Virus record (IMG/VR): IMGVR_UViG_3300043313_002362
Location: 1 to 21,366 of that record
DNA length: 21,366 nucleotides
DNA from: a virus
Direction: 5' to 3' (one strand)
The notes beneath the pieces are model-generated. The model had not been told where the DNA came from and made no database searches. It saw only the letters and a list, made by a program, of their open reading frames with translations. The translations under genes were made by a program, and so were the position numbers. Positions 891-19,243 of the stretch are shown piece by piece; the stretch's first letter is position 1, and each line of letters begins with the position of its first letter.

Positions 891-966
891 GCCGGCGTAG
901 CTCAGTTGGTAGAGCAGCTGATTCGTAATCAGCAGGTCGTCCGTTCAATCCGGATCGCCGGCTCCA
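891..966 (+). tRNA. tRNA-Thr (anticodon CGT)
   Basis: A full cloverleaf can be drawn. The acceptor stem GCCGGCG (891-897) pairs with CGCCGGC (956-962), followed by T and an encoded CCA (964-966). The D-arm is GCTC/GAGC. The anticodon stem GCTGA/TCAGC holds the loop TTCGTAA with anticodon CGT at 924-926, reading ACG (Thr). The T-arm is GTCCG/CGGAT around TTCAATC. The gene is intact although it is the integration site: the incoming element supplied an identical 3' half, and the displaced half lies at 17041-17087. Confidence 0.97.
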
Positions 967-1031: not shown

Positions 1032-1052
1032 TAGCTACCGCATAGCTACCAC
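1032..1052 (+). promoter_or_regulatory. Probable integrase arm-type site, left end
   Basis: Two direct copies of TAGCTACC start 11 bp apart (1032 and 1043), the second continuing as TAGCTACCAC. The same 21-bp arrangement, differing at one base, occurs at 16914-16934 near the right end. Paired short repeats found only near the two att sites are what arm-binding sites of tyrosine integrases look like. The site lies 65 bp inside attL. Confidence 0.7.
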
Positions 1053-1088: not shown

Positions 1089-2048
1089 TTGGCACCTGCG
1101 ATAAAAGAAATCCCGCTTCATTCGTGGGAAGAGCTGGTGGGGCGCTTCGACGACCTGCCAGCCTGGATCTTTCGCGGCCACGCCTCCACCAAATGGGATC
1201 TCCAAAGCACGCTCGATCGAATGGCGCCAGCCGGCCACCCTAAGACGTTCGCGGAATACAGTCTCACTCGCGAGTTTAAACGGCGCGCGCACACGTATCT
1301 CCAAGCGCATCAGGTCCCAACGAAACCGGGCGAGTGGTTGGCGCTCATGCAGCATTTCGGTGCGCCCACCCGTCTTCTTGATTTCACAAAATCACCTTAC
1401 GTCGCCGCGTACTTCGCCTTCGAAGACTTACCGCTGGACGGTTCGGATCGTTGCGCGATATGGGCCATCGAACCGGGATGGTGTTTCACTGAGTTTGCCT
1501 ACAAGGTTGGGAGCCAGGGCGATACCCTATTCGGATTGAATGCCGACGAGATCAACGACGCACTCGATAGAGCGAAGGGCTGGGCCTCTGAAAAACGTTC
1601 AGACGGCGAACCACGCACCGACGCGGAAATCCGCGGACGTCAACTAGTTATGGTTGGCTCGATTCTCGCTCAAATGATTGACGATAAAGCCGAGGAGGCG
1701 GCGCCGCTGGGAGCGCTCGTGTTTGAACCCGAGCGCCTCAGCGAGCGAATGTCTGCTCAGCAAGGCGTCTTCATTTGGCCAGGGGACGTGAATGCGACCG
1801 TCATGGATAACGTTCTCGCTCTCGGTCACATCGAGCGCGGAGTACGGAAGTTTACCGTGCCAACCTCGGAGCGAGGCCGCGCGCTAGAACAGCTCCGTCT
1901 GATGAACATCACGCGCACATCGTTATTCCCTGGCCTTGAAGGATTCGCGCAATCGTTTCGACAGGCGCTGATCAGAGATTCAACCGAGGGTATGGAGCGT
2001 CGGGCGTTACTGCGCGCGCTCGGCAATCAGACAACCGAAGACTCATAA
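1089..2048 (+). CDS. FRG-domain protein, cargo gene next to attL
   Basis: A 319-residue protein with an N-terminal FRG domain. The name-giving F-R-G triplet is at residues 28-30 in WIFRGH, followed by a conserved block around residues 89-113 (QHFGAPTRLLDF, then AAYFAFE) that is typical of the family. No signal peptide or membrane segment is evident. The start is TTG at 1089: an in-frame stop lies at 1032 and no ATG or GTG falls between; a weak purine-rich GGGGGA lies just upstream. The gene reads rightward, against nearly all of element 1, and sits between attL and the left-end operon, where prophages commonly carry accessory genes. The biochemical function of FRG domains is not settled. A role in defence or toxicity is a guess from its position, not something the sequence proves. 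Confidence 0.85.
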   Translation: MAPAIKEIPLHSWEELVGRFDDLPAWIFRGHASTKWDLQSTLDRMAPAGHPKTFAEYSLTREFKRRAHTYLQAHQVPTKPGEWLALMQHFGAPTRLLDFTKSPYVAAYFAFEDLPLDGSDRCAIWAIEPGWCFTEFAYKVGSQGDTLFGLNADEINDALDRAKGWASEKRSDGEPRTDAEIRGRQLVMVGSILAQMIDDKAEEAAPLGALVFEPERLSERMSAQQGVFIWPGDVNATVMDNVLALGHIERGVRKFTVPTSERGRALEQLRLMNITRTSLFPGLEGFAQSFRQALIRDSTEGMERRALLRALGNQTTEDS

Positions 2049-2076: not shown

Positions 2077-2364
2077 TCAGTTCTCCGTCTGCGAGCGCGG
2101 TTCCTGCTGCCAACCGCCGTTAACGTACTGCCCAACGCAGGCGGCGAGCGCTGCCGGGTACTCCGGCAGCCGAGCGCCGTGAAACATTTGGCTTTCGAGC
2201 AGTCCGCCGTCGACGAACACGAGGAACTCGAGCGCGCGGAACTGCGTTACCTTCCGCTCGCGAATCTCGGCCCAACGACCGCCTGGCTTCGTGAATCGAT
2301 GTAGGACTGTCATCGGCGCCGGCGCATTGACGCGCAGGCCCTTGAACGGATTCGTGTCGCTCAT
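2077..2364 (-). CDS. Unknown 95-residue protein, last gene of left-end operon
   Basis: I do not recognise this protein. It is 95 residues, soluble, with a mixed composition and a hydrophobic stretch in the middle (EFLVFVDGG) that looks like a buried strand rather than a membrane helix. It starts at ATG 2364, 19 nt after the stop of the upstream gene, without a clear Shine-Dalgarno sequence, so it probably depends on translation of its neighbour. It ends 28 bp from the stop of the converging FRG gene, and no terminator hairpin is visible in that gap. Position suggests it belongs with the winged-helix regulator and two unknown genes to its right. Confidence 0.6.
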   Translation of the reverse strand: MSDTNPFKGLRVNAPAPMTVLHRFTKPGGRWAEIRERKVTQFRALEFLVFVDGGLLESQMFHGARLPEYPAALAACVGQYVNGGWQQEPRSQTEN

Positions 2365-2383
2365 GGTGTGCGTGAACGCAGGC

Positions 2384-2791
2384 TCATTGCGGCATCTGAG
2401 CGAGCATCAGGAACCGCGTATAGACCTCGCCGTTTGGAGCATCGGCCGCGCTGCTGCTCAGGAACAGCGCGACATCGCGCGCGGGATCCATGGCTTCGAG
2501 TAACGGGCGTACTCGGTCAGAGAAGGTCGGGTCGACGTGATGCTGTCGCGTCGAATCCAGAAACGCTTCGATTGGTATGGATACCGTCGGGTCCATCTCG
2601 AAACGCGTGGTGGTGCCCGGCGGCAGCGTTTTCGTCGCCAGGAGCTCTCGCATGTGTTTCTTGGTCACGGTCATCGACAGAACGGTACGCTCGCCCTCGG
2701 ATGATTTGATCGCGTGCGCACGTAGCTGCCACTCGATGAGAGGCAGCCACTTCGTCACCATGTCGTTCCACTCGGCCATCGGATCATTCAT
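2384..2791 (-). CDS. Unknown 135-residue protein, coupled to upstream gene
   Basis: I do not recognise the family. The chosen start, ATG 2791 (MNDPMAEWND), overlaps the end of the preceding gene by 8 nt in the arrangement ATGAATGA, a common sign of translational coupling. A longer reading from 2845 is possible but would overlap the upstream gene by 62 nt. The N-terminal third is probably helical (WNDMVTKWLPLIEWQLRAHA). The rest mixes strand-like and helical segments, with no cysteines, catalytic motif or membrane segment. It is the third gene of the series regulator, 169-residue protein, this gene, 95-residue protein. Confidence 0.65.
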   Translation of the reverse strand: MNDPMAEWNDMVTKWLPLIEWQLRAHAIKSSEGERTVLSMTVTKKHMRELLATKTLPPGTTTRFEMDPTVSIPIEAFLDSTRQHHVDPTFSDRVRPLLEAMDPARDVALFLSSSAADAPNGEVYTRFLMLAQMPQ

Positions 2792-3293
2792 CGCGCCCTG
2801 CTTTCGTGTTGTGCGCATCTTGGCCAGGGGACAACTTGCGGGCAAGCGTTCGCATCACTTGTCGGCTGTCACCGTCCATTGCGCGGTATCTGTCGATCAG
2901 ATCCTTTTCCGTTTCTGACAGCGACTTCAGATCACGTCCAACCTTCTTGCGGCCGTGAAGGACGTCGAACACCTGTTCACGCTGAGAACTACTCAGCGAA
3001 TCGGACGCGAGCAAATTCCTCAGCACGCGCTCTGCTTTTGTTGCACGGTTTTTAAAGTACGTGTTGTAGTCGCCAGTGGTCTTGAACACAAGCCAGAGCA
3101 GCAACTTGACGCCAGTGTCCAGCGGGCAATAAACCGTATTGCTGATGAGCCCTAACTCCAGCAGCTTGTTATCGAGCGCGCGCCACGCGTCGTAACTCGC
3201 CTCACGGACGCGCTTCTCGCGATCGTGCGGATCGGCGCCAGCGCCGTCGATCGCTACGACGGCCGCGCTCTCGATTGATGTCATGAGTTTCAT
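2784..3293 (-). CDS. Unknown 169-residue protein downstream of winged-helix regulator
   Basis: No family recognised. The start at ATG 3293 (MKLMTSIES) shares an ATGA overlap with the stop of the regulator gene; the longer open frame to 3386 would run through that gene and is unlikely. The protein is mostly helical and charged. One hydrophobic segment (VKLLLWLVF, about residues 66-74) is too short and too isolated for a confident transmembrane helix. The C-terminal half (residues ~88-150) is rich in K, R and E, suggestive of nucleic-acid or protein contacts. Tight coupling to a DNA-binding protein suggests they act together or are co-regulated; anything further is inference. Confidence 0.65.
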   Translation of the reverse strand: MKLMTSIESAAVVAIDGAGADPHDREKRVREASYDAWRALDNKLLELGLISNTVYCPLDTGVKLLLWLVFKTTGDYNTYFKNRATKAERVLRNLLASDSLSSSQREQVFDVLHGRKKVGRDLKSLSETEKDLIDRYRAMDGDSRQVMRTLARKLSPGQDAHNTKAGRDE

Positions 3294-3673
3294 CGGTGCG
3301 CGTGCTCCTGTCCACGGCTGCCGGCATCGGCCGTGTAGTGGCGCGCGGACAATCGCGACACGGTATCGTCGTCGACGAGGAACCACGATGCGCCGCGGTC
3401 CGTGCGACGCGATTCGATCTGAAACCCGGCCGCGATCAGCGCATCAATGTCGCGTCGGATCGTTCTGTCAGTCACTTCCGGTAAGCCATGTTCAGCGGCG
3501 CAGGCCTGCAGTTGCGCCAGCGTTAGTCCGTAACGGGAATTCAGCAACCGCACGAGTAGTCGCCACTGGCGTTCAATTTGTTCGTGTCGGACAATTTCTC
3601 GGCACTGCGGCGCGGCGTAGAGGGCAGGGGGAACGCTTGGCAATTGCAGCTGATGGTGAAGGGTATTCGACAT
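3290..3673 (-). CDS. Winged-helix DNA-binding regulator (HTH part of WYL-type regulators, no WYL domain)
   Basis: A 127-residue protein. Residues ~35-95 form a winged helix like that at the N terminus of DeoR/WYL regulators. A helix (RQWRLLVRLLNSRYGLTL) is followed by a helix-turn-helix with the recognition helix in TDRTIRRDIDALIAAGF, then a wing strand ending in SWFLVD. WYL regulators normally continue with a WYL ligand-sensing domain of over 150 residues. Here only about 30 residues follow, so it is either a stand-alone DNA binder or truncated. It has an excellent ribosome binding site (AAGGAG), but this lies in the loop of a 6-bp stem ending at the start codon. The next gene starts inside its stop codon (ATGA). 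It probably regulates its own operon. Confidence 0.75.
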   Translation of the reverse strand: MSNTLHHQLQLPSVPPALYAAPQCREIVRHEQIERQWRLLVRLLNSRYGLTLAQLQACAAEHGLPEVTDRTIRRDIDALIAAGFQIESRRTDRGASWFLVDDDTVSRLSARHYTADAGSRGQEHAHR

Positions 3674-3691
3674 GGGGTCTCCTTTGACCCC
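3674..3691 (-). promoter_or_regulatory. Stem-loop presenting the ribosome binding site of the winged-helix gene
   Basis: On the minus strand GGGGTC and GACCCC form a perfect 6-bp stem around the loop AAAGGA, which contains the Shine-Dalgarno core, and the ATG follows immediately. In RNA this could modulate ribosome access; as DNA it is an 18-bp dyad that a protein could bind. Both are inferences from the symmetry alone. Confidence 0.5.
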
Positions 3692-3755
3692 GGCTGGCGG
3701 CCTGCCTGATAGACTCTCGCGCAGGCTCGTTAACCGGCTAACACGGTTGACGGGT

Positions 3756-3944
3756 TTAGGGGCGCTTGCGGGTTACCGCCCGCTTGCGCTCCGCTTTCTT
3801 CGTGACGCCCTTCTTCTTCAGCCAATCGTTTATCGCCTGCCGGATTTGCTCCGACTCGGTGATGTCCTCTGCAGCCTTGACGGTCTTCAGCCCGTCGGCC
3901 TGAACATCGTTGATCCAAAACGAGTAGCGTTTTCGTGGCGTCAT
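3756..3944 (-). CDS. Ribbon-helix-helix (CopG/Arc-like) DNA-binding protein
   Basis: A 62-residue protein. The N-terminal strand KRYSFWIND is followed by two helices (QADGLKTVKAAE, then SEQIRQAINDWLKKKG), the plan of ribbon-helix-helix repressors, which dimerise and insert the strand into the DNA major groove. The C-terminal tail is unusually basic. The start is ATG 3944, supported by GGAG six bases upstream; a longer open frame to 4148 would run through the neighbouring gene. A promoter with a perfect dyad on its -35 box lies just upstream, which fits autoregulation. It heads the leftward set that continues, after an 82-bp gap, with the winged-helix regulator. No toxin partner of an obvious known family follows, so a classic antitoxin role is unproven. 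Confidence 0.78.
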   Translation of the reverse strand: MTPRKRYSFWINDVQADGLKTVKAAEDITESEQIRQAINDWLKKKGVTKKAERKRAVTRKRP

Positions 3945-3958
3945 CGAAGCTCCAGATG

Positions 3959-3988
3959 TATATACGTTGGATTGACAAACAGTGTCAA
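3959..3988 (-). promoter_or_regulatory. Promoter and operator of the RHH gene
   Basis: Reading leftward, TTGACA (3988-3983) is followed after 18 nt by TATATA (3964-3959), a good -35/-10 pair. The -35 hexamer is half of a perfect inverted repeat, TTGACA-N5-TGTCAA (3972-3988). A repressor bound there would block the promoter, and the RHH protein encoded directly downstream is the natural candidate. Confidence 0.6.
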
Positions 3989-3999
3989 GTGAACTTCGG

Positions 4000-4350
4000 T
4001 TACTTCGTGATCGATTGCCACATCTCGCGCCCGACCTCGTCAATCGCGCGATCGCCCTCGGAGTCGAGCGCTGGACGTATGAACGGCTGCGCTGACTGGT
4101 GGACGGTGCCGAACTCCACAGGTCCTGCATATGGCACGTCGGTTCCAACCGCGACGCCGCTGCTCGTCTCCGTAATCACGATGCTGGATGCCAGCCTACC
4201 GGTACGCCGCGGCGCCAGGCGCGATGCGGTGTCTCGTATCGGCTTGGCGGCCGTCTTCAGCGCGCGTTGCTGCGTGCGTTTGTCGTTCGCCGTGGCCGCC
4301 AGTTCTTGAAGTTTGGCCTGTAACTCAGTGAGGCCGATGATCTGCAGCAT
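4000..4350 (-). CDS. HK97-gp10-like phage protein (head-tail/tail completion)
   Basis: A 116-residue protein whose pattern matches the HK97 gp10-like family: a helical N terminus (LTELQAKLQELA), then APRRTGRLASSI, the strand-turn VPYAGPVEFGT and the C-terminal HQSAQPFIRPALDS. These proteins act at the neck or tail completion stage of siphophage assembly. The spacing RTGRL ... YA..VEFGT ... PFIRPA is characteristic. The gene starts 2 nt after the stop of the upstream 116-residue gene. The odd point is location: in most HK97-like phages it precedes the tape measure, but here it follows it in transcription order. The RHH promoter begins 12 bp after its stop. Confidence 0.8.
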   Translation of the reverse strand: MLQIIGLTELQAKLQELAATANDKRTQQRALKTAAKPIRDTASRLAPRRTGRLASSIVITETSSGVAVGTDVPYAGPVEFGTVHQSAQPFIRPALDSEGDRAIDEVGREMWQSITK

Positions 4351-4352
4351 GT

Positions 4353-4703
4353 CTATTCCGCCTTGTGAAATTCCGCGGCCAGGTCATCGAGGATTTGCGG
4401 GGCGAGGCTGAACGGCCGCGCCAATGACAGCATGCGCAGGTGGCGCGCGACGATCTTGAAGTCATCCGCCACGGAATGCAACACGGCGGGGGTTAGTGGC
4501 TCGTGCTGGAGCCGCGTGAGCGCGGACTCAAGTCGAACGGCGTGCGCTTCGTTGGGGCCCGCGACGCCCAATTGCTCGCCCAGGCGCAACATCTTTACGA
4601 TGCCGCCGAGAATGCCGTTCAACTCGCGCCGTAAGAGCGCCGTTGCCGCGTCGGTCGACAGATACGGTAACGCCGCGCGTTTGAGCGTTCGGAAACTTAG
4701 CAT
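4353..4703 (-). CDS. Unknown phage protein, 116 residues, upstream of gp10-like gene
   Basis: Not recognised. The protein is almost entirely helical and rich in leucine and alanine (for example LLRRELNGILGGIVKMLRLG and VLHSVADDFKIVARHLRML), with no cysteine cluster and no real membrane helix. A good ribosome binding site (TAGGAG, about 8 nt spacing) supports ATG 4703. It is followed within 2 nt by the gp10-like gene, so both are likely co-translated and may act together at the tail or neck. The tape measure gene lies upstream, beyond an oppositely oriented small gene. Confidence 0.62.
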   Translation of the reverse strand: MLSFRTLKRAALPYLSTDAATALLRRELNGILGGIVKMLRLGEQLGVAGPNEAHAVRLESALTRLQHEPLTPAVLHSVADDFKIVARHLRMLSLARPFSLAPQILDDLAAEFHKAE

Positions 4704-4782
4704 CAGCGGCTCCTACCGGCAGGCATTACGAAGGTCACTCCGATCGCGTCACGGAAGTTGAAACGATACAATCGCTGAACGT

Positions 4783-5085
4783 ATGGCCGAACTTCCATCA
4801 CATGTCCTCCGAATGGCGTCGTTCAAACATGTTCAGCAGATGCTGGAAGCTAGCTTTGTGCTGACGTACGGGTATTCCCAAGAAGGTCCACTCAAAGTCG
4901 GGCCTGATGATTTTGTTGTCGAAGTGATATTCCGATCCATGCCTTCGAGCACCATCGCGCGCAGTCCGTTCGAGAAGTCGGCCCTATTCGTTTTCAAAAC
5001 GAGCGCTGAAGCCGTCGCAGATGTTGAATCGCGCCGTTCCGAATTGCTCGCTGAGGGCTGGATCGAAAACGACGCTGCCGACTGA
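4783..5085 (+). CDS. Unknown 100-residue protein, moron-like gene against the tail operon
   Basis: No family recognised. The protein is soluble, with alternating hydrophobic and polar segments (FVVEVIFRSM, SALFVFKTS) and an acidic C-terminal helix (VADVESRRSELLAEGW), a folded-protein pattern. The overlapping minus-strand frame (4833-5093) is a serine-rich shadow. The gene reads rightward and its stop lies 4 bp from the end of the converging tape measure gene, so it sits as a single inserted gene in the leftward late operon. There is no good Shine-Dalgarno sequence before ATG 4783. A TACAAT hexamer at 4766-4771 could serve as a -10 box but has no convincing -35. Independently transcribed single genes of this kind in prophages are often expressed in the lysogen. 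Confidence 0.6.
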   Translation: MAELPSHVLRMASFKHVQQMLEASFVLTYGYSQEGPLKVGPDDFVVEVIFRSMPSSTIARSPFEKSALFVFKTSAEAVADVESRRSELLAEGWIENDAAD

Positions 5086-5089
5086 CATC

Positions 5090-7945
5090 TCACGACTTCA
5101 CTCCAACCAAGTCGAGGAGATCGGTTCTGAAGCCGTTCTCGTTGTTATCGACGGCCGAGAGTATGGTGTTTTTGAGGAATCGCTTGTACTCGACGCCATC
5201 CATTTGGATGATGTTCTCCAACTGCACATGTATCTGGGCCGGCCGCTGGTCGACTGGCGCGGCCGCGGACGCTCCCGCACCAAGGCCACCGAGGACGTCC
5301 ATCGCGAACGGGACCGCCTGGTCCTGTCTGACCACGGCTTCGATGCCATGCATCGTGTTGGCCGTTTCGTGACCCCAGTTGTGAAACCAGTTTCCGAATC
5401 GACCCTTCGTGCCAAGTGCGGTGCCTGGCTCTCCGGTGCGTTCGTCACCACCGCCGCCGTCGACGGTGCCTGGGGGTTGCGGGATCGGATCTGCCGTATA
5501 GGTGAAATGGGTGTTGCGATCACGCGTGGCCTCTTCGAGCGCCGGGATTAACTCGTTCGTGATCTTGTCGATTAATGCATCGATCTTTCCAACGAGGTCG
5601 CTGATCGACTTTTGAATAGTGTCGAACTGCGTTTCGATCGGACTACCGAACTTGATCTTGCCGATGTCGGTGATCTCTTTACCGTTCTCGTCCAGGAGCT
5701 GGTGCGTGTCGATCAGGTTCTGGATCCACGGCTTCATGTTGGCCGGGATCGTCGTGCCGAGCTCGATCGACTTTCCGACGAGTTTGCCGATCTCGTCCTT
5801 CATGCCGACCAGAATGCCGCCGGTGTCGCCGCCGGCCTTATCCAACAACGTGAAGGCGTTGATGATGCGCTTCGCTTCGGAGTCGATGCCCTGTTGCCGC
5901 AAGATCGGACCGAGTCCGTCCATGCTGACCCCGAATTCATCGGCCGTGGACTTCGCTTTGTCGAATGAAACGCCGACGAACTTACCGGTCTTGTCGAATT
6001 CGTATCCCAGTGCGCGCGCGTCGCTGATGGCGCCGTCGAGTTCACCACGCAGGTCAGACAATGCGCTGTTGGCGTCGTCGACTCCCTTCTGCGCGTCGTC
6101 GACCATCTTGTCGATGGCCTTGTCGAAGGCCTGCGCCAGTTCATCGAAGTGCTTTTTGCCAGCTTCGCCCTGCGACTTCCACGCCGCGGCCAGATCCACG
6201 CCGACGATCTTGCCGATCCGATCGATTCGTTCCAAAGAGCCGTACTGCTCCAGTAGCTTCTGCTTCGATTCGTCAATCTTGGCGTTGAACTTCTTCAGCT
6301 CGTCGTTCTGGCCGATGCCGAATAACTTCTTAAACGCTGGCACCAACTGCCCCGACAAGGACCCAATTGCCGATCCGATTTTCGCGCCAAGGGGACCGAA
6401 CGCGCTCCCGATGCCAGCGCCGATCGTGGAGCCGATCTGGGAGACGATGGACTTGAGGGCGCCCATGATGTCGCCGCCACCGGTGAAGGCGTTGGCGATC
6501 GTCTGCGAGATGTCTCCGAGATTCTTCGAGAGCCCAACCTTCATGCCGCCCCAGGCCTTATCCAAGAAGGACGGGCTCAGGTTGTCGCTGAACCCTTTTT
6601 TCAAGGGCTCGAACATCTTCGATAGATCCATCGACGATGCCAGGCGCGCCGGTTCGATCGTGATGACTTCGCCACTGAGCCTGAAGAACTGCTCCCACAT
6701 CGCGTCGGCCGCATCCGCAGCGGAGTTCGCCAACGGCACGAACTCGCCGATCTTGACGTTGTAGCGCTCCTGAAAGACCGTGATCGGATCGAGCGCCTTT
6801 GCCATGCGCTCGAACTTCTCGGCGAGGTTGACATTACCGACGAGGCGGGCGGCCTCCGCGCCGTCAAGCAGTCCCTCCTGTAGGTGTTTCAGATCAGACG
6901 GCAATACCTTCAACGGCCCGCCAATCGCATCGATCTCGCGCGCGATCATCTGTGCGCCGCTGATCGCGTCAGCGCCGCCGATCTGCCGGAGCGCCTTGGC
7001 GAACTCTTTGGCGGCTTCCGCTGCGGCCTTGTTTCGCTCGAACGAGACGGCCACTTCGCCGTCGAGCTTCTTCAGCGCCGCCTCTTGCTCTGCCGGAGAC
7101 ATGGAGGAGTTCGGCAGTTGCGATGGACCTGGCGCACCCGGTAACTTGGGCAACTTCAACGCCATCAGGCCAACCGATTGAAGCGCCGAAGCCCAGTCCC
7201 AGGTGCTGATGGTGTTCTTCTTTACCGAGCTATCGAGCGCGTCGAAGTTCTTGATAGCGATCAGAACCGTGCCGAGCGCCTGCACTGAACCTGTCGTCAC
7301 CCGGTCCCAGAGATCATCGACCGCATCGCCCGCATCGGCTAGCGCATTAACCTGTGCCTCGCCTGCCTTGGTGGCGTGCGACGCCATCTCGTCGTACCCG
7401 CTGGCAACAGCGGATGCAACTTCCTTGAATGACTTACCGAACAACAGCACGCCGAGGCGATTGCGCTCCTGTGCGTCCTGCACGCCACCGAGCGCCTTCG
7501 TGATCGTGTTGAACTGCTCATCCGGGGACATCGCCTGCAGCGCGGCAAAGGACAGGCCGAGCTTGGCGACGGCGCCTTCGACGCTGTTGCTGCCGCCGGC
7601 GAGATTGATGCCCAGCTTGAAAGCCGCATTCGTGAACGCGTCGAGCGATGACCCGGTCTGTTTCGCGGCATAGGCCATCTCTTGCAGCGTGTCTGTCGTC
7701 AGGCCCGTTTGGGCGGCGAGGTCCTGAAGTTTGCCGGCGTATTCCGTCGCCTTCCCGATCGCCGCGGTGATGGCGCCGACCGTGAACACGGTGCCAAACA
7801 CCTTGCCAAAATTCTTCGCCTGGTCGGATAGGCCCGTCAGCTTGCCGGAGAACTCGCCCGCGCTGCGTCGCGCATCACCGAGGCCTTTGGTGAACCCGGC
7901 GGTGTCGAGGCCGAGTAGAACTTTCAGATTGCCGATGATCGCCAT
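5090..7945 (-). CDS. Phage tail tape measure protein
   Basis: A 951-residue protein, the longest gene in the window. The N terminus (LKVLLGLDTAGFTKGLGDA) is the usual opening of siphophage tape measures, followed by long helical, alanine-rich coiled-coil stretches. Hydrophobic glycine-rich segments lie at residues ~50-65 and ~485-531 (GSTIGAGIGSAFGPLGAKIG). Such segments are thought to help the tape measure reach the host membrane. At about 1.5 Å per residue it would set a tail of roughly 140 nm, an estimate from family behaviour. The tail-assembly-chaperone-like gene ends 3 nt upstream, the normal neighbour. No tail-tube gene is present in the element. The reading frame is uninterrupted, so the gene is apparently functional. 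Confidence 0.92.
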   Translation of the reverse strand: MAIIGNLKVLLGLDTAGFTKGLGDARRSAGEFSGKLTGLSDQAKNFGKVFGTVFTVGAITAAIGKATEYAGKLQDLAAQTGLTTDTLQEMAYAAKQTGSSLDAFTNAAFKLGINLAGGSNSVEGAVAKLGLSFAALQAMSPDEQFNTITKALGGVQDAQERNRLGVLLFGKSFKEVASAVASGYDEMASHATKAGEAQVNALADAGDAVDDLWDRVTTGSVQALGTVLIAIKNFDALDSSVKKNTISTWDWASALQSVGLMALKLPKLPGAPGPSQLPNSSMSPAEQEAALKKLDGEVAVSFERNKAAAEAAKEFAKALRQIGGADAISGAQMIAREIDAIGGPLKVLPSDLKHLQEGLLDGAEAARLVGNVNLAEKFERMAKALDPITVFQERYNVKIGEFVPLANSAADAADAMWEQFFRLSGEVITIEPARLASSMDLSKMFEPLKKGFSDNLSPSFLDKAWGGMKVGLSKNLGDISQTIANAFTGGGDIMGALKSIVSQIGSTIGAGIGSAFGPLGAKIGSAIGSLSGQLVPAFKKLFGIGQNDELKKFNAKIDESKQKLLEQYGSLERIDRIGKIVGVDLAAAWKSQGEAGKKHFDELAQAFDKAIDKMVDDAQKGVDDANSALSDLRGELDGAISDARALGYEFDKTGKFVGVSFDKAKSTADEFGVSMDGLGPILRQQGIDSEAKRIINAFTLLDKAGGDTGGILVGMKDEIGKLVGKSIELGTTIPANMKPWIQNLIDTHQLLDENGKEITDIGKIKFGSPIETQFDTIQKSISDLVGKIDALIDKITNELIPALEEATRDRNTHFTYTADPIPQPPGTVDGGGGDERTGEPGTALGTKGRFGNWFHNWGHETANTMHGIEAVVRQDQAVPFAMDVLGGLGAGASAAAPVDQRPAQIHVQLENIIQMDGVEYKRFLKNTILSAVDNNENGFRTDLLDLVGVKS

Positions 7946-7948
7946 GGG

Positions 7949-8299
7949 TTACTTTCGGGTTGCCTTCCGGGATGGTTTCGGTTTCGCGGCCATGCGACTC
8001 GAGAGCTCCGATAACTTCTCGGTGAAGACGGACACGCCGCCGGCGCGTTCGACGAGACTGCTGACGTCACCGAGGGTGACGGTCGGATGATGTCGCTGCA
8101 GCAACGCCCAGATCATCGCGCGCAGATGTTTGACGCTGCCGGCTTCAACGGCATCGACGACTTGACCGAAGGTCACCGCCTTGTCGGGCGCCTCGAACAG
8201 ATCCTCAATGGCGACCATCGCATCTAGCGTGAGGGCCAGCGTGTGCGGTATGCCGTCGATGTTGACCGTCACTTCGTTTGGGTGTGTGTTCTCAGCCAA
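7949..8299 (-). CDS. Probable tail assembly chaperone
   Basis: A 116-residue protein directly upstream of the tape measure (3-nt gap), the fixed position of tail assembly chaperones, which coat the tape measure before tube polymerisation. The sequence fits the GTA/gpG-like type: an N-terminal strand pair (VTVNIDGIPHTLALTL), a helix with the conserved-looking AMVAIEDLF, and a helical core with LRAMIWALLQRH, ending in a basic tail. The start is TTG 8299 with GAGG six bases upstream; the first internal ATG is at codon 28. Many tail chaperones have a -1 frameshift extension. Here the tape measure begins too soon after the stop to leave room for one. Confidence 0.68.
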   Translation of the reverse strand: MAENTHPNEVTVNIDGIPHTLALTLDAMVAIEDLFEAPDKAVTFGQVVDAVEAGSVKHLRAMIWALLQRHHPTVTLGDVSSLVERAGGVSVFTEKLSELSSRMAAKPKPSRKATRK

Positions 8300-8367
8300 T
8301 TAATCCTCGGTTCTAATGAACAGTGGCGACGTCTTCGGCGCGGGACGATCTGTTTCAACTCGGTTCG

Positions 8368-9216
8368 CTATCCGCCATTCGTCAGCAGCTCCTTCACACG
8401 AGTCTCGACGTCAGCGATCAGCGACGCCCGATCGACCTCGGCGGCAGGGGCCGACTCGACGTCAACGCAGGCCGCATCGGCTTCAAGTTCCTCGAAGGTT
8501 AGAGGTCGATCGCATATCCTGGCCGCCGACTCTCGAATGCACGCGACGAACGACGAGCAGTCGCCATCGCCATCGGAATGGTCGCGGTAGGTGCGCGCTT
8601 GTTCGGCGAGCCGATACCGGACGCGATCGTGCATCTTGCGAGTCCAGGTCACCGCATTGCGACAGGCCCACCGCCAGGCCGCGAGTTCCGACATAGGATG
8701 ATCGCTGTACGCACGGCCGTTGATGGCTTTCACGAAACCGCTCTCGCGTCGAGGCTCGAGGACGTGGCCAATTTCATGAAGAGCGATGGCGTAGTCGACT
8801 TCGGAGATGATGGGGCGAAGAGCGATGGTCCGCGTGCTCTGGTCCGCGTAACCGGCGACGCCCTCGTGCGTATTCAGAATCGCGCGAATGCGATGATCCA
8901 GGCACAGCTGAATCGCGTGAGCGGTGAGCCTCGCAATCTCAGGTGAGGGGATGTCTTCAGCCGTGAGTAGTTCGCGGAGCTCCTTCGCTCGTTGTTGAAG
9001 GTCAGCGGCCGCACGGTCAATTTTTTCGCGTTGCTCGCGATGAAGTGTCTTCGCAGTACTGGGCTCCATTACCTCGATTGCGTTCCATTCGCTTTCGGTC
9101 AGGTCGGTAATCGTGGCGCCTTTTCGTAGCCTTTCTTTCGCAGCGGACAACCTCGACCACATGAGATGGAGCTCGCCCCGAGTGGGAATGTCATCAAACG
9201 ATTTGTACGTCCTCAT
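8368..9216 (-). CDS. Zinc-metallopeptidase-like protein with HEIGH motif
   Basis: A 282-residue protein. Residues 147-151 read HEIGH, preceded by a hydrophobic helix (DYAIA), and a glutamate in SELAAWRWA (E177) lies 26 residues on. This is the layout of gluzincin-type active sites, where two histidines and a glutamate bind zinc. The first ~90 residues form a charged coiled coil. The start at ATG 9216 shares an ATGA overlap with the preceding gene; a longer frame would run back through the collagen-like repeat. The 68 bases after its stop are non-coding. It occupies the stretch between terminase and tail genes where phages keep portal, protease and capsid genes. A role in head maturation is conceivable but unsupported; its substrate is unknown. 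Confidence 0.7.
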   Translation of the reverse strand: MRTYKSFDDIPTRGELHLMWSRLSAAKERLRKGATITDLTESEWNAIEVMEPSTAKTLHREQREKIDRAAADLQQRAKELRELLTAEDIPSPEIARLTAHAIQLCLDHRIRAILNTHEGVAGYADQSTRTIALRPIISEVDYAIALHEIGHVLEPRRESGFVKAINGRAYSDHPMSELAAWRWACRNAVTWTRKMHDRVRYRLAEQARTYRDHSDGDGDCSSFVACIRESAARICDRPLTFEELEADAACVDVESAPAAEVDRASLIADVETRVKELLTNGG

Positions 9217-9557
9217 GCGACCCCCTGGCCATCGCGGCCATCGCGGCCATTTCGACCGTCGTGGCCGTCGCTGCCTTTCTTGACTGCTAATTGCCATGAA
9301 GGGCCGGGAATGGTTCCGGGCTCATTCGTTAACGCGATCCACAAGGAGCCGCGGAATGTGCAAGTCTCACCAGCGCGATAGGTGCGCGTTTGTTCGTAGA
9401 CTCCGGTGTAGACGAGCGCCGGTCGAGCCTCGAGCGTCGCGATGCGCTGCTCGAGGGACTCGATCCGCTTCGTGTTTCCGTCAAACAGTTTCGTGACGAA
9501 ATCTCGAATGGGCGTAACGATGGCCCTGGCGATGGCGTCCATGTCGCTCGTGTTCAT
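9213..9557 (-). CDS. Carbohydrate-binding-module-like protein with short collagen-like tail
   Basis: A 114-residue protein in three parts. Residues 1-45 are a helical region ending in a coiled coil (NTKRIESLEQRIATLE). A small strand-rich module with the aromatic pattern of chitin-binding-like domains follows (TRTYRAGETCTFRGSLWIAL ... PGPSWQLAV). The tail is of G-X-Y triplets (GSDGHDGRNGRDGRDGQG). Coiled coil plus collagen-like repeat predicts a trimer, and the module may bind glycans at the cell surface. Similar arrangements occur in phage structural or fibre-like proteins. The start at ATG 9557 shares ATGA with the stop of the M41-like gene, preferred over 9575. The triplet region is encoded by a 9-bp tandem repeat. 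Confidence 0.7.
   Translation of the reverse strand: MNTSDMDAIARAIVTPIRDFVTKLFDGNTKRIESLEQRIATLEARPALVYTGVYEQTRTYRAGETCTFRGSLWIALTNEPGTIPGPSWQLAVKKGSDGHDGRNGRDGRDGQGVA
9217..9270 (-). repeat. 9-bp tandem repeats coding the collagen-like triplets
   Basis: On the plus strand near-copies of GGCCATCGC follow one another (best around 9226-9250), coding G-X-Y triplets on the minus strand. Such arrays change length by slippage, so the number of triplets may vary between relatives. Confidence 0.6.
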
Positions 9558-10042
9558 GGCAGGCTCTGACTCCAACGAAGGTGCGCGATATGGGCGCCGC
9601 TCAGGCTCCGACAGACGGAGAGATGCCGCGCCACGCGAACGAGCCAGGCCCAGTTGTGTTTGACGCAGGCCATCGCCGGCGCGTGCGCCCGTTTCAGCCG
9701 CTCTTCGAAACTCCAGATCGACACGGAGCCGCGGCGGTTGATGTCACGGCATTCGGCTCGAAGGAGTGTGTTCGCGTGCCTGAGATCCTCCGCGCCGAAG
9801 CGATACGGGCGCCCGGTCAGATGTTGCTCGGCGCATGGACCCGCGAGAAACAGCAACATCATGATGTCGTCGTCAACATGGCGTAGGCTGCCGTGGCGCA
9901 CGTGCCCGAGCGCGTTGAGTTCGCGATCGGGTTCGATCGTCGCGTAGCCGACGGGAATGCCGTTTGCGACGGCGGCGACGGCATGACCAGCTTCGTGATG
10001 GCTGACCACCAATTCATCCGCGGTAACAACGCGTGTCGCCAT
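9554..10042 (-). CDS. Stand-alone M41 (FtsH-like) peptidase domain protein
   Basis: A 162-residue protein with HEAGH at residues 16-20 (SHHEAGHAVAAVANG), a strand region containing ALGHVRHG, a helix LFLAGPCAEQHLTG and an aspartate in FGAEDLRHA (D86). This order matches the FtsH peptidase domain, in which the two histidines and that aspartate bind zinc. The AAA+ ATPase and membrane parts of FtsH are absent and the domain is shorter than usual, so unaided it could only cut unfolded or specific substrates. ATG 10042 follows the previous stop by one base; the longer frame to 10078 overlaps that gene. The stop is overlapped by the next gene (ATGA). It lies in the operon slot where head genes are expected. 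Phage or island copies of this family have no settled role. Confidence 0.75.
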   Translation of the reverse strand: MATRVVTADELVVSHHEAGHAVAAVANGIPVGYATIEPDRELNALGHVRHGSLRHVDDDIMMLLFLAGPCAEQHLTGRPYRFGAEDLRHANTLLRAECRDINRRGSVSIWSFEERLKRAHAPAMACVKHNWAWLVRVARHLSVCRSLSGAHIAHLRWSQSLP

Positions 10043-10043
10043 G

Positions 10044-10601
10044 TTAGGGATGAGAGGTCCTGACGAACGCGCGTGCAACTTGTAGCCAGCGGTCGCAAGA
10101 TTGGGGACTTCCCGCGCCGATCGGCAGCGGCCATTGCGAGTGATAGCCCGCCCGGCGACGGACGGCCTCGAGTTCCGCGTTTAAGCCGACGAGTGTCTGC
10201 ACAACGGGAAGCATGCGACGCGTGATCTCGCGGGCCTGGGCCGCCAGGCCGGCTTGTTCGACCTCTCGAGCGGCATCGACGGCCGCGGCCACATCCGCAT
10301 CGGCCGCGATCTTGGCCGGCATCAGCATTCGCTCTTTGGCATCCAGTTCGGCGATGTCGCGATGAATCTCGACACCACGCTCAACGATGGCGTTCGGGTG
10401 TCCTGCAGTGACCAGGGTGCCCGCGTACAACGCGTCACGCTCCGCCATCCGCTCCGCCCGCCGGCGCCGAATGAGAGTGAGTTCCTGTTCCAACGCCGTG
10501 CGGCGCGCGGTGGCCTGGATGACTGCGGGATCCGATTTGACGCCATTCAGCCGAATCTTTGCGGTGACGTCGCCAAGGGTTTGAACTGCTGCAGTGCTCA
10601 T
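10044..10601 (-). CDS. Unknown coiled-coil protein, 185 residues
   Basis: Not recognised. Most of the protein is helical with strong charge periodicity: residues ~35-70 (LEQELTLIRRRRAERMAER) and ~85-150 (IHRDIAELDAKERMLM, then alanine-rich AAAVDAAREVEQAGLAAQA) look like coiled coils, ending in a short basic tail. A scaffold-like or structural role would be possible for a phage protein of this build, but no capsid gene is present. ATG 10601 (MSTAAV) is chosen; a GTG at 10631 lies inside a palindrome and would add ten residues. Neither has a clear Shine-Dalgarno sequence. The downstream M41-like gene starts one base after its stop. Confidence 0.62.
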   Translation of the reverse strand: MSTAAVQTLGDVTAKIRLNGVKSDPAVIQATARRTALEQELTLIRRRRAERMAERDALYAGTLVTAGHPNAIVERGVEIHRDIAELDAKERMLMPAKIAADADVAAAVDAAREVEQAGLAAQAREITRRMLPVVQTLVGLNAELEAVRRRAGYHSQWPLPIGAGSPQSCDRWLQVARAFVRTSHP

Positions 10602-10624
10602 ACAAGATTCGAGTGTAAGGACAC

Positions 10625-10643
10625 GCTGCACATGATGTGCAGC
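10625..10643. promoter_or_regulatory. 19-bp perfect palindrome between two operon genes
   Basis: GCTGCACAT and ATGTGCAGC are perfect 9-bp arms around one base, in the only sizeable gap (49 bp) of this part of the operon. A further TGTGCA follows directly. No T-run flanks it, so it is more likely a protein-binding site or RNA-processing hairpin than a terminator. Confidence 0.5.
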
Positions 10644-10650
10644 ATGTGCA

Positions 10651-11013
10651 TCACCGTGGCACCAATCGCCAATTGCGGCTGTCGCGCAATAACAGAAACC
10701 GTGGATGTTGTTGGCCTGCTTTTATGGTTCGCAGCAACGCGCCGAGGGCGCCGGTATCAGCGATGTCGCACGCGGCCAAGGCTGCACCGAGTTCATAATT
10801 CACCTCGCCGGCGTCGATCACCTCTTCGCTGCTGAACGGCAGCTCGCGATCGCCAAGTGCGCCATCGATCGAATCGAGCAGCCGATCGTGTCTCGGGTCC
10901 GATGAACCCGGCGCCTTAAACGACTCACGGATCTGCCGCAACTCATCGCGTATCGCGGCCTGATCCTCGACGATCTGCTGCAGCAGTTCATAAATCGTCG
11001 CGAATGACGTCAC
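10651..11013 (-). CDS. Unknown phage protein, 120 residues, after terminase
   Basis: The N terminus is a coiled coil (IYELLQQIVEDQAAIRDELR). The C-terminal two thirds form a small helical domain with SSEEVIDAGEVNYELGAALA, GALGALLRTI and a final strand pair ending in NWRLV. This reads like a winged-helix-type fold seen in small phage proteins that choose or bind DNA, but I cannot name the family. ATG 11013 shares ATGA with the terminase stop, so the two are translationally coupled. The position directly after TerL would suit a packaging accessory; this is inference from order only. Confidence 0.62.
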   Translation of the reverse strand: MTSFATIYELLQQIVEDQAAIRDELRQIRESFKAPGSSDPRHDRLLDSIDGALGDRELPFSSEEVIDAGEVNYELGAALAACDIADTGALGALLRTIKAGQQHPRFLLLRDSRNWRLVPR

Positions 11014-12938
11014 CGGCGCGCACCCCCGCCGACAATGAGCAGCGAATAGGTCGGTTCGTTCTTGACCGGCTGTCGCAACATCGCGCCGATCGCTTGCAGG
11101 AGCGCGTCGATCGGATCGATTTTGTCGGCGCTGGCTGCGTGCGCCTTTTTCGGCAGCAACGAATCGTCACCGCGGCGTTGAACCACCACATTCGATGCGG
11201 CCCACTTCAGTAGCGAGTTGCCATCGTGTCGGAGACGTCCGTGTTTCACGCGCGCCTCGAGCTCGATCGCCGGCGGCGTGAATGACTTCGGGTTCTTGGC
11301 TTCGATGATCGCGGGCAGGCCGGCCGTCTGCAGCGAGCTGACGATCTGCGTCGACCCGAACGTATCGAACACGATTTCGACCACGTTGAATTCTTTCGCC
11401 CAGGCGCGAATGTCGGCCTCGATGCGATTGAAATCGATCAGCGTGCCTTCGGTCAGGACGAGGAGACCGCTGTCGGCCCACTCGCGGTACGCCGGCACCG
11501 CGCGCGCGCGTTCGTCGACGATGTCGGCGGGCAGGTAGCAGCGCACGAAGGCGACGATCAGATCATCCTTCTTGAACGTCAGGGCCACCGCGGCCAGGTC
11601 GTCGATCTGCGCGAGGTCGGCGCCGATCCAGCATCGTTGACCCTTGAAGTCCGCAAGGCGAAGAGCGGGATCGGCGCAGCGGTCCCAGGCGTCCATCGGC
11701 AGCCACGAGCTCGCGGATTGCAGCCATTGGTTACAGACCTTCGTGCGGAACTCGCCCTCGAGGCCCGGCGTCTGTTTCGCGTCCTGAGCGTAGGTCCGCA
11801 CCCAGGCGAGCGTTGGCGAGATACCCAGCATCGGATTGGCCTTCGGCCATACCGCTTCGTCGCGCCAATCGTCGCCGTCGTCGAGCGTATAGATCAGGCC
11901 GAGAAAGTGATCCGACTCGAAGCCATCGATTTGCAAGAGCACTTTGGTCAGCCGCGTGCGCATCGCGTAGCCAACCGATAGCAGGTCGTAGCCGGCGGTC
12001 GTCGGACAGGCCAGCAGCGGGTTGAGCCTGGCGCCCTGAGACGATTTCAAAACATCATGCAGCTCGAACGATTGCGCGTGCGATTCGTCGAGCACGATCG
12101 CCGAAGGGTTGAGGCCGTCAAGGTTACTGGCCTTCGAGTTCACCGGTTTGGCGCTCCCGGCTTCGAAGATGATGGCGTTGGCCAACGCCTGCGCGCCTTC
12201 GTCTCGCAGCCACGCGGAACGCCTGACCATCTTCTGCATGATGCCGAACACGATGCGGGCCTGCTGGCCGGTTGTGGCACCGCACACCACCGACGCGCCT
12301 GGCTCGTTCTCGCGCATCAGGTGATAGAGCGCGATGCCGGCCATCAAGGTTGACTTCGCCGCCTTGCGAGCCACCTCGAGATACAGCGTGGTGAACCGGC
12401 GCCGCGTCGCCGCCTGCCGCTGGCGCCACCCGAACAGGCACGTCACAACGAAGATCTGCCAGGGCTCGAGCTCAATCGTCGGCGTCGTCCACGAGCCCTC
12501 GACGTGCGGGCAGCGCTCAAGAAAGGCGCACGCAGCCTCGGCTTCGGCGTCGCTCCACGCGTACGGCCAGGATCCGTCGGTCGCGGCGCGCATCCGATCG
12601 CGATCCTGTCGCGCACAGGCCAACTTGACCCAGCTGCACGCCACGATCTGGCCTGACAACACGCCCGCGGCATATTGAGCGCCGACGCGCACGTAATAAC
12701 CCTTGGGACGAGCGGTATTCGATCGCTGCGATTTCGGCTTGGCCTTCTGGTTACGCCGGACTCGACAGGGCCTCAGCGTCCCTCGACGCGCCTTCTCCGC
12801 ATCGCTCAACCGCGGCCGCCCGCCCTTCGATTTCTTCGCCTTCGGGGTTTTGGATGCGCAAACTCCGAGGCCGTAGGCCTTCCGGACTCGAGCTCGCGAA
12901 TTCTTTTTACCTCCCCCCCCGGTCTTGCGCTTCACCAT
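11010..12938 (-). CDS. Terminase large subunit
   Basis: A 642-residue protein that would cut and translocate DNA during phage packaging. ATPase part: a deviant Walker A ARKAAKST at residues 190-197 and Walker B IVLDES at 281-286, with the preceding SNLDGLNPSA typical of HK97/Terminase_1 enzymes. Nuclease part: acidic residues D441 (WIGADLAQ), D525 (VFDTFGSTQ) and D608 or D611 (KIDPIDALLQAIG). The first ~80 residues are an unusually basic extension containing GRPRLSDAEKARRG, which recalls the start of P27-type small terminases. No separate small terminase was found in this element. A run of eight G on the coding strand lies at codons 7-9 (12913-12920). The start overlaps the HNH stop (ATGGTGA). 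Confidence 0.92.
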   Translation of the reverse strand: MVKRKTGGGGKKNSRARVRKAYGLGVCASKTPKAKKSKGGRPRLSDAEKARRGTLRPCRVRRNQKAKPKSQRSNTARPKGYYVRVGAQYAAGVLSGQIVACSWVKLACARQDRDRMRAATDGSWPYAWSDAEAEAACAFLERCPHVEGSWTTPTIELEPWQIFVVTCLFGWRQRQAATRRRFTTLYLEVARKAAKSTLMAGIALYHLMRENEPGASVVCGATTGQQARIVFGIMQKMVRRSAWLRDEGAQALANAIIFEAGSAKPVNSKASNLDGLNPSAIVLDESHAQSFELHDVLKSSQGARLNPLLACPTTAGYDLLSVGYAMRTRLTKVLLQIDGFESDHFLGLIYTLDDGDDWRDEAVWPKANPMLGISPTLAWVRTYAQDAKQTPGLEGEFRTKVCNQWLQSASSWLPMDAWDRCADPALRLADFKGQRCWIGADLAQIDDLAAVALTFKKDDLIVAFVRCYLPADIVDERARAVPAYREWADSGLLVLTEGTLIDFNRIEADIRAWAKEFNVVEIVFDTFGSTQIVSSLQTAGLPAIIEAKNPKSFTPPAIELEARVKHGRLRHDGNSLLKWAASNVVVQRRGDDSLLPKKAHAASADKIDPIDALLQAIGAMLRQPVKNEPTYSLLIVGGGARR

Positions 12939-13330
12939 GCCGCGTTTCTCTCGGCGTGCGTGATGTCATCGTGGCAGGACTTGCAGAGCAGAATAATCCG
13001 CGTCGCGTTGCAAACGGCCGCACGATCCATTGCCTCGCGATCGGTGAGGGCTGGCGAATGGTGGAGGTGTAGCCCTGATCGGTCAGCACTCGAGCCGGCA
13101 CGGCAGCCGATGATGAGTGTCGGTCCGTTCGGTAACCGGGAACCGCAGGCGATCGGGACGCCGGCGGCTAGCAGCCTGACAAGGTAATCCTCCCGCCATC
13201 GGCGCCACCAGCTTTGGCTGTAAATGTCGCGGACAGTGATGCGCTGGCGGCGATGATCTGCGCAATAACCTGAGCGCACGCGGGCGCTGCAGTTCGGCGC
13301 CTGGCAACGGCGAAGGAGGTTAGCCGGCAT
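12932..13330 (-). CDS. Phage HNH endonuclease
   Basis: A 132-residue protein with a short zinc-finger-like start (CQAPNCSARVRSGYCADH). The nuclease core follows: LHLHHSPAL supplies the first histidines and LLCKSCHDDITHAE the second metal knuckle with the final histidine. HNH proteins encoded next to TerL assist the terminase in cutting and are needed for packaging in several cos-type phages, so the position fits well. ATG 13330 has GGAGG five bases upstream on the minus strand; an ATG ten codons earlier at 13360 is less likely. The start codon overlaps that of a divergent gene by two bases, so its promoter must lie inside that gene. Confidence 0.83.
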   Translation of the reverse strand: MPANLLRRCQAPNCSARVRSGYCADHRRQRITVRDIYSQSWWRRWREDYLVRLLAAGVPIACGSRLPNGPTLIIGCRAGSSADRSGLHLHHSPALTDREAMDRAAVCNATRIILLCKSCHDDITHAERNAAW

Positions 13331-13340
13331 GCTGGCCTCC
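13313..13340. promoter_or_regulatory. Back-to-back ribosome binding sites with overlapping start codons
   Basis: AAGGAGGT (13313-13320) precedes the rightward ATG 13329, and GGAGG on the minus strand (13340-13336) precedes the leftward ATG 13330. The two starts overlap in the palindromic GCATGC. The whole is nearly symmetrical, so each gene's binding site is part of the other's coding or leader sequence. Confidence 0.65.
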
Positions 13341-14024
13341 GCGGCGGGCGTGCTCAGCATTAGAATTCCGGACGTGCCGCATGTTTACACTTGGCTTTGC
13401 AGCGTGACCGGGAGTTCGTCCTATTGGTGTAGAGCCTTCGACGCCGCTTATCTGGCCGACTGGATGATGGTTGCGATCACGCTGACGGCCGCTCTGGCTG
13501 CGGTCATCACTTTGCGACACTTGGCGAAGCAGACCGAGCTGACTCGAGCCGCGTTCTTGTCCACTAATCGTCCGAAGATCGTCTTGCGGCGCGTGGTGCC
13601 GATCGGAACTCCACACACCGGCCAGGAAAGCATCGACGCTCGTGCCGAATTCGCCAACGTCGGTAATACAGCTGCGACTCTGATCGGATGCCGCACCCAC
13701 ATACAACTGATTCACAACGGTCTCGCAGCGAAACCGGTGCTTGGTGATGCATGGGAAGCTAATGACGTCGGAGTAGGACAGGATAAAGGGCCGGCACAGC
13801 TCGAAGCGGGCGGTGTTTGGATCATCTTTATGAAGACATCTCCGCTGGAGACCGACGACTTCATTGGATTTCGCAACGGCACGCATAACTGCTGGGCGTT
13901 GGGCGAGATCGACTACGTCGACGCGCTTGGCGTAAGGCGCTCTGCTGGATTCTGTAGAGTGTTTAACCACGCCACGAGACGTTTCGAGCTCTTTGATGAT
14001 CCGGACTACGAATACGCGGATTAA
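13329..14024 (+). CDS. Single-helix membrane protein, cargo gene
   Basis: A 231-residue protein. A single hydrophobic helix lies at residues ~46-63 (MMVAITLTAALAAVITL), followed by a basic linker (RHLAKQTELTR) and a soluble domain of about 150 residues opening with FLSTNRPKIVLRRV. The remainder is strand-rich (RAEFANVGNTAATLIGC, VWIIFMKTS). Anchored proteins of this plan, with NRPK after the helix, are common hypothetical genes in soil bacteria and have no known function. The start is supported by a full AAGGAGGT nine bases upstream. It reads against the surrounding operon and separates the excisionase-like genes from the packaging genes, so it is probably an accessory gene. The opposite strand is also open for 295 codons but gives an incoherent protein. 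Confidence 0.75.
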   Translation: MLASAAGVLSIRIPDVPHVYTWLCSVTGSSSYWCRAFDAAYLADWMMVAITLTAALAAVITLRHLAKQTELTRAAFLSTNRPKIVLRRVVPIGTPHTGQESIDARAEFANVGNTAATLIGCRTHIQLIHNGLAAKPVLGDAWEANDVGVGQDKGPAQLEAGGVWIIFMKTSPLETDDFIGFRNGTHNCWALGEIDYVDALGVRRSAGFCRVFNHATRRFELFDDPDYEYAD

Positions 14025-14219: not shown

Positions 14220-14570
14220 TCACTTCTGTGTCGATGATTTCGCAGGCAGCGACACGCGCTTTTCCCAGGTCCGCTTGACTGTGCCGTCAGCGTTCGTGCG
14301 TTGGATGGAATGCCGGAACACGACCAGTCGTTGCCCCTTCCAGCCGTCCGTTTCTGAACCGAAGAACTCGATGAGCGCGCGTCGCTGGCTGATGTTCGGC
14401 ACCAGGCGCCAGCCGTCGTCAAACATCACAACGGGCTCGAGTTGCTTGACGCCGGTGAAACGGTTGCGGATTACTTCCTCGGCTACGTCCGAGATCCGAC
14501 CTTCGTAGTGGTCTTCGAATTGTTCGCTCAACGCTTTGTCGTTGAGCCATCGCCGGAGGTGGCGCGTCAT
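14220..14570 (-). CDS. Unknown phage protein, 116 residues, third gene of excisionase operon
   Basis: The sequence resembles a loosely defined group of phage and plasmid proteins found near recombination or excision genes: LEPVVMFDDGWRLVPN, then ISQRRALIEFFGSETDGWKGQRLVVFRHSIQ, where a tryptophan-glycine-lysine turn precedes a final strand. This is from memory of the pattern, not a database match. ATG 14570 shares ATGA with the upstream stop; an ATG two codons earlier (14576) is equally possible, and a longer frame to 14702 is unlikely. The gene ends at the edge of the hexamer-repeat tract. Function unknown. Confidence 0.62.
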   Translation of the reverse strand: MTRHLRRWLNDKALSEQFEDHYEGRISDVAEEVIRNRFTGVKQLEPVVMFDDGWRLVPNISQRRALIEFFGSETDGWKGQRLVVFRHSIQRTNADGTVKRTWEKRVSLPAKSSTQK

Positions 14571-14773
14571 GTCCATGACCGTGTCGCGCGCTCGCGCCCA
14601 TGCTGATGATCGAGCAACGCGTGGTATCGGTCTCGGACCCGTTGGAGCTCGCGCTCCCGTTCGGCGAGCAGTTGCAACGCCTGTGCGCACAATTCGCGCC
14701 ACGCGTAGACCTCGTCCCGCGTGCGCGACAACTCGATCACCTGGTGGATAACCAGGCCGCCGAGATTACTCAT
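14567..14773 (-). CDS. Small coiled-coil protein, 68 residues
   Basis: A short, strongly helical protein (VIHQVIELSRTRDEVYAWRE, then LLAERERELQRVRDRYHALL) that should form a coiled coil. Nothing in it points to an activity. ATG 14773 (MSNLGG) shares ATGA with the stop of the excisionase-like gene, and its own stop is overlapped by the next start, so it is translated as the middle of a three-gene set. It may be a partner or cofactor of the HTH protein. Confidence 0.58.
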   Translation of the reverse strand: MSNLGGLVIHQVIELSRTRDEVYAWRELCAQALQLLAERERELQRVRDRYHALLDHQHGRERATRSWT

Positions 14774-16902: not shown

Positions 16903-16913
16903 GCGAGAACCTC

Positions 16914-16958
16914 TAGCTACCACATAGCTACCACGCGAGTGCGCGTCAGTGGTAGCTA
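16914..16958. promoter_or_regulatory. Probable integrase arm-type sites, right end
   Basis: Two direct TAGCTACC copies (from 16914 and 16925) and one inverted TAGCTACCAC (16949-16958) lie between the integrase start and the right att. The direct pair matches 1032-1052 at the other end of the element except for one base. The overlap with the integrase leader would allow the integrase to repress its own gene. Confidence 0.72.
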
Positions 16959-17002
16959 AGAGTAGGCGAAGAGTAGCATGAATAGGCGTATTTGCTGGCA
17001 AC

Positions 17003-17087: not shown

Positions 17088-17111
17088 AATCCTTAGTAAA
17101 AACAGAAATTA

Positions 17112-19242: not shown

Positions 19243-19243
19243 T

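Follow-up and report, generated by a model that had tools for sequence, protein, structure and literature searches.

A DNA stretch of 21,366 bases, which makes up the entire IMG/VR record IMGVR_UViG_3300043313_002362 and is called the window here, was found to carry an integrated element (element 1) with phage packaging and tail genes and no recognisable head gene. We regard element 1, with modest confidence, as a headless derivative of a temperate siphophage, that is, a streamlined defective prophage that would be mobile only with a helper. Genes for an HNH endonuclease, TerL, a tail assembly chaperone (TAC)-like protein, a tape measure protein (TMP) of 951 residues and a gp10-like protein are present and intact (PHROGs, Pfam and TIGR01725; Table 1), as a first-pass annotation of the window had proposed. 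The same annotation had recognised neither head genes (portal, prohead protease, capsid) nor genes for a tail tube, lysis or replication in the element, and PHROGs and Pfam detected none of these. In six-frame searches with family-specific profiles built from the closest relatives of the window, capsid-protease, portal, tail tube, closure, adaptor and baseplate gave neither a match nor a remnant, and gp10 was the sole structural match (E 2e-5). Judging by its gene content, element 1 cannot build a particle alone, and moving would require the head, tube and baseplate of a helper.

The borders of element 1 were located at approximately 968 and 17087, giving a length of ~16.1 kb integrated in a tRNA-Thr gene. 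The segment initially annotated, 2077-13330, is thus only a part of an element that runs from attL (921-966) to attR (17041-17086). The 46-bp repeat shared by the two attachment (att) sites is an exact copy of the tRNA-Thr 3' end. Moreover, the octamer TAGCTACC has five exact matches in the window, where 0.08 are expected, and its arrangement matches the layout expected for integrase arm sites, which it likely represents. Given the att repeats, the arm-like sites and the integrase at the right end, both ends of element 1 appear intact.

We then compared element 1 with its relatives. A scan with the TerL alignment gave 26 closest TerL relatives (L069-L094; 50-67% identity), and a capsid, protease or portal gene adjoins TerL in all 26. 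In a first, broader TerL set a head gene was present in 42 of 43 loci, the 43rd ending inside TerL. Since all of the closest relatives carry head genes beside TerL, these comparisons indicate that the head genes were lost in the element 1 lineage, along with the tube, the distal tail and other modules. Nine longer records were studied in more detail, and their usual gene order is TerL, a protease-capsid fusion, portal, in several cases a protein with the domain encoded at 9213-9575, connectors, tube, TAC, TMP and large distal tail genes. Siphophages L069/L149, L074/L155, L083/L153 and L082/L152, whose TerL is 61-67% identical to that of the window over most of its length, share with element 1 the N-terminal TerS-like motif where covered, a homologous TMP and, in places, HNH, the 9213-9575 domain and gp10 (L155, for instance, has HNH, TerL, portal, protease, capsid, gp10 and TMP). 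They differ in having capsid, protease and portal after TerL, followed by connectors, tail tube and large distal tail genes. Two conserved genes annotated without a function were observed between TerL and capsid-protease in L003 (1950-3199; phrog_4652 and phrog_15946) and L150 (2179-3446).

Because the 9213-9575 domain sits just downstream of portal in relatives, the lost capsid and portal genes can be placed between TerL and position 9213; this expected place of the head genes, between TerL and 9213-9575, is occupied by three unrelated genes. Connectors and tube are absent before TAC, the large tail genes are absent after TMP, and early genes are also gone. The distance from TerL to TMP is 3.1 kb in element 1 versus 6.3-15 kb in relatives, and gp10 lies after TMP, whereas it lies before TMP in relatives. 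The first-pass annotation had considered a simple deletion, to be recognised by relatives with head genes at one clean site. Head genes do stand beside TerL in the relatives, but with head, connector, tube and distal tail genes all gone and gp10 moved, the losses would need several events and not a single deletion.

TerL keeps 116 of 118 family-invariant residues, a number of changes (2/118) in the normal range for the 24 relatives compared, and its Walker-like, Walker B and nuclease acidic positions are conserved in the alignment; in a closer subset of relatives its change rate (8/185) was joint highest. The TMP is collinear over nearly its whole length with phage TMPs (25-32% identity over 800+ residues; L153, L160-L162), and since it aligns over at least 800 residues with TMPs of 1,004-1,054 amino acids, it looks complete. 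It changes 6 of 61 conserved positions, fewer than five of six phage TMPs. As few invariant positions have changed, TerL and TMP were constrained until recently, which fits a young defective prophage and a working satellite equally well. The claim that the element is unlike random decay therefore stands up to a point, there being no gene stumps and no evident relaxation of constraint on either TerL or TMP.

The TMP-based relatives are phage contigs. Tail tube and TAC lie just before TMP in four of the seven studied, and head genes were recognised in two of seven, the others being cut or too divergent for the profiles used. The survey of relatives that had been proposed thus recovered homologous TerL and TMP genes, and no relative with the same headless gene set. 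The 2.9 million viral contigs searched yielded no second headless element, whether the query was TerL, TMP, either of two further proteins of the element, the integrase or the att core; exact-peptide scans were run with TMP, 8368-9297 and 10044-10631. Searches of phage and plasmid collections with the tail and accessory proteins gave no relatives except weak metallopeptidase matches in plasmids, and a scan of genome contigs gave distant matches only. Among 200 Pseudomonadota genomes, TAC phrog_2115 was found in 19 and TerL PF20441 in 19, never near each other. This lack of element relatives carries little weight, since only fairly close relatives are within reach of the scans and the host was not identified, the flanking ABC transporter giving a best match of 53%.

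Two members of the TerL family are of a different kind. L089 (10326 bp, 123-bp terminal repeat, 10,203-bp circle) and L092 (10221 bp, 127-bp terminal repeat, 10,094-bp circle) carry a TerL of the window family, capsid, portal and protease, and no tail gene was recognised in either. L089 additionally has an integrase, an excisionase-like gene, an O-like replication protein and HNH. In gene content, both resemble complete capsid-forming satellites, and L087 and L093 look like fragments of such genomes. The TerL family thus contains phages that have both head and tail genes, circular satellite-like genomes without a recognised tail gene, and a headless element, and may suit the study of phages splitting into helper-dependent parts.

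How did element 1 arise, and does it still move? Like a defective prophage, it is bounded by att sites and has an integrase and genes homologous to those of complete phages, while essential particle genes are missing. Its ancestor would have lost the head, tube, distal and other modules stepwise and gained unrelated small genes, namely an FRG candidate defence gene and two metallopeptidase-like genes. The remnant would now be a defective prophage kept in the chromosome, and any movement would proceed by excision with its own integrase and carriage in helper-phage particles. Similar defective prophages, termed 'proto-hitchers' (PMC11389934), are likewise phage derived, keep the integrase, miss structural modules and move only with a helper; compared with these, gene loss in element 1 is unusually clean, and constraint on TerL and TMP has been kept. 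Three points lead us to rank a defective prophage above a satellite: defective prophages occur far more often, the searches gave no second headless element, and neither a replication nor a remodelling gene can be recognised. The lack of a second headless element is expected for a one-off derivative and not for a successful satellite family. Several observations speak against a defective prophage. No stumps or fused partial genes mark the deletion points, though several separate losses are needed; unrelated genes overlap seamlessly where the head region used to be; the conservation of TerL (116/118 invariants) and TMP points to selection until recently; and the surviving TAC-TMP pair is the set used by the PLE (phage-inducible chromosomal island-like element) satellites.

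A functional satellite is accordingly the alternative to which we give appreciable weight, while considering it less probable than a defective prophage. Such a satellite would excise on helper infection, package its DNA into helper heads with its own HNH and TerL, and replace the TAC and TMP (and perhaps gp10) of the helper in tails built on helper tube and baseplate, whereby it might set tail length or escape tail-directed defence. This is suggested by the intact and constrained TerL and TMP, the adjacent TAC-TMP pair retained without tube or baseplate, the intact ends with integrase and AlpA-like gene, the 16-kb size, the FRG candidate defence cargo and the presence of L089 and L092, two satellite-like circles without a recognised tail gene, among its TerL relatives. 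Satellites have long been assumed to borrow complete tails. According to a recent report, PLEs, which are Vibrio cholerae satellites, have genes for TAC and TMP, in some cases also for a baseplate hub (BhuB), and build chimeric tails, taking capsid and remaining tail parts from the helper; PLE virions contain the PLE TMP and not that of the helper, deletion of the PLE tmp reduces transduction by 96-99.9%, and some capsid-forming phage-inducible chromosomal islands (cf-PICIs) carry putative tmp genes (Nature 2026, PMC12987554). In gene content, element 1 is analogous to a PLE in having its own TAC and TMP without a tail tube, in being integrated and in carrying defence cargo, so that the PLEs offer a direct precedent. 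A difference is that the text consulted mentions no TerL for PLEs (PMC12987554), whereas element 1 has TerL, HNH and a gp10-like gene. Element 1 is thus a concrete candidate for PLE-type supply of TAC and TMP outside Vibrio, or else may be a snapshot of a prophage becoming a satellite.

On the other hand, no conserved family was found, and by TerL the element stands nearest to phages that possess both head and tail genes. Regarding P4-like or PICI features, element 1 gave no match to satellite primase, replication or capsid-remodelling families, though its small genes could hide a remodelling factor. We know of no satellite plan with its own TerL and without its own portal, which also counts against a satellite. 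A comparison with cf-PICIs is instructive in this respect. Element 1 shares with them integrase, AlpA-like gene, HNH and TerL, and has no capsid, portal or protease of its own; cf-PICIs build heads themselves and use borrowed tails (PMC10690885), of which an element without any head gene is roughly the mirror image. That element 1 actually works as a near mirror image of a cf-PICI, supplying terminase, TAC, TMP and gp10-like protein and taking head, tube and baseplate from a helper, is, in our estimate, less likely than not.

Three further explanations were considered. A second integrated element (element 2; 17087-21366) starts directly to the right of element 1, in tandem at the same tRNA-Thr, and could supply heads or be the helper, both elements being mobilised together. 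Its genes from integrase to TerS, including an O-like protein, lie within 3.7 kb, compact like L089. However, the contig ends within element 2, leaving any head genes outside view, and tandem integration at tRNA sites is common; we thus consider such a pair improbable. A join of parts of two phages during assembly is conceivable for a single IMG/VR record, but the two ends agree in their att repeats and arm-like sites, and gene overlaps are continuous, which makes an artefact very improbable. The TAC, TMP and gp10-like genes would also agree with a tailocin-like, tail-only particle with a non-packaging job, which had been suggested alongside a satellite. While a helper-dependent satellite is possible, the idea of a stand-alone tail did not hold, since no tube, baseplate, fibre or lysis gene was found with general or family-specific profiles and TerL and HNH would serve no use; it is the least credible of all explanations.

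Table 1. Positions of features in the window.
Position	Strand	Feature	Evidence
891-966	+	Host tRNA-Thr (CGT), intact, attachment site	ARAGORN, Rfam RF00005
921-966		attL core, 46 bp identical to attR	Within 64-bp repeat at 92%
1032-1050		Likely integrase arm sites, left end	TAGCTACC pair, 11 bp apart
1089-2048	+	FRG-domain protein, cargo beside attL, candidate defence gene (PDC-S15)	PF08867 5e-25; PADLOC 1e-45
2077-2364, 2384-2845, 2784-3386, 3290-3673	-	Four small genes of no assigned function	
4000-4350	-	HK97 gp10-like tail completion/neck protein, downstream of TMP	phrog_5 4e-24; PF04883; TIGR01725 above cut-off
4353-4703	-	116-aa protein	Phage-like codon bias, score 0.31; no family match (PHROGs, Pfam)
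5090-7945	-	TMP, 951 aa	phrog_9483 3e-16
7949-8299	-	TAC-like protein (TAC / GTA-gp10 family)	phrog_2115 3e-9; PF11836 1e-4, below its cut-off
8368-9297	-	Accessory protein with HEIGH zinc-metallopeptidase motif	phrog_87 0.08
9213-9575	-	Coiled coil, small domain and collagen-like tail	
9554-10078	-	Accessory protein with HEAGH metallopeptidase motif	Weak PF13398
10044-10631	-	195-aa all-helical protein	AlphaFold2 pLDDT 76
10651-11013	-	120-aa protein, start overlaps TerL stop	
11010-12938	-	TerL, TerS-like N-terminal motif, catalytic residues intact	phrog_9 2e-147; PF20441; PF03354
12932-13360	-	HNH endonuclease, overlaps TerL start	phrog_144 6e-9
13329-14024	+	231-aa protein, opposite strand	
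14220-14702, 14567-14803	-	Two genes of no assigned function	
14770-14985	-	Excisionase/AlpA-like helix-turn-helix protein	phrog_66 3e-6; PF12728 2e-7
15053-15715	-	220-aa protein adjoining integrase	No family match (PHROGs, Pfam)
15712-17010	-	Tyrosine integrase of element 1	Arm-binding domain PF13356
16914-16958		Arm-like sites, right end	Two direct TAGCTACC 11 bp apart and one inverted
17041-17086		attR core, end of element 1	
17162-20979		Second integrated element, left part, cut by contig end	Integrase, CGNR-like, excisionase-like, O-like replication protein, TerS (20118-20720)

The TerS-like motif of TerL, GRPRxxxxEKxRRGT, lies in an N-terminal extension of ~75 residues and was found in nearly all TerLs of the family in which the N-terminus is covered (L069-L093 and the window). 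It had no match in PHROGs or Pfam. In those TerL relatives where upstream DNA is present, the interval from HNH to TerL showed no separate TerS. The extension was considered as the scar of a TerS deletion, which we rejected as the motif is common to nearly all these relatives. Possibly, this is a family of TerS-TerL fusions.

Among the accessory genes, the two HExxH metallopeptidase-like genes (8368-9297 and 9554-10078) occupy the place of the head/connector module; the former has weak plasmid relatives without phage context, and its structure model is poor. For the protein encoded at 9213-9575, the match is to a C-terminal domain that occurs in some portal families (phrog_1289, 272-331). This domain, accessory in nature and 60 residues long, is present in tail fibres too (phrog_5073), and in relatives it belongs to a separate protein just downstream of portal (L075, L083/L153, L085, L091). 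A hidden portal in 9213-9575 was therefore rejected, the match being limited to this domain. For 10044-10631, a capsid or portal fold was the outcome set in advance as contradicting a headless element; the AlphaFold2 model is all-helical, and the fold search gave no match with E<=0.001, in agreement with the first-pass annotation.

Codon bias was coding-like in all main open reading frames except HNH (near zero). The highest values belonged to TMP, 4353-4703, TerL, TAC, 10651-11013 and gp10; the metallopeptidase-like genes and 13329-14024 scored lower. A more recent arrival of the accessory genes is no more than hinted at by these scores, because the reference set includes TMP and TerL, each gene being left out in turn. 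Codon-bias scoring gave no coding signal for 3730-3978, and an HTH_11 match was found in gene 3290-3673. Element 2 is compact enough for a satellite, and degenerate 30-nt direct repeats (AAACAACGAAGCnnnCTTCGT...) were observed at 19544-19731 within its O-like replication gene, where they are perhaps origin iterons.

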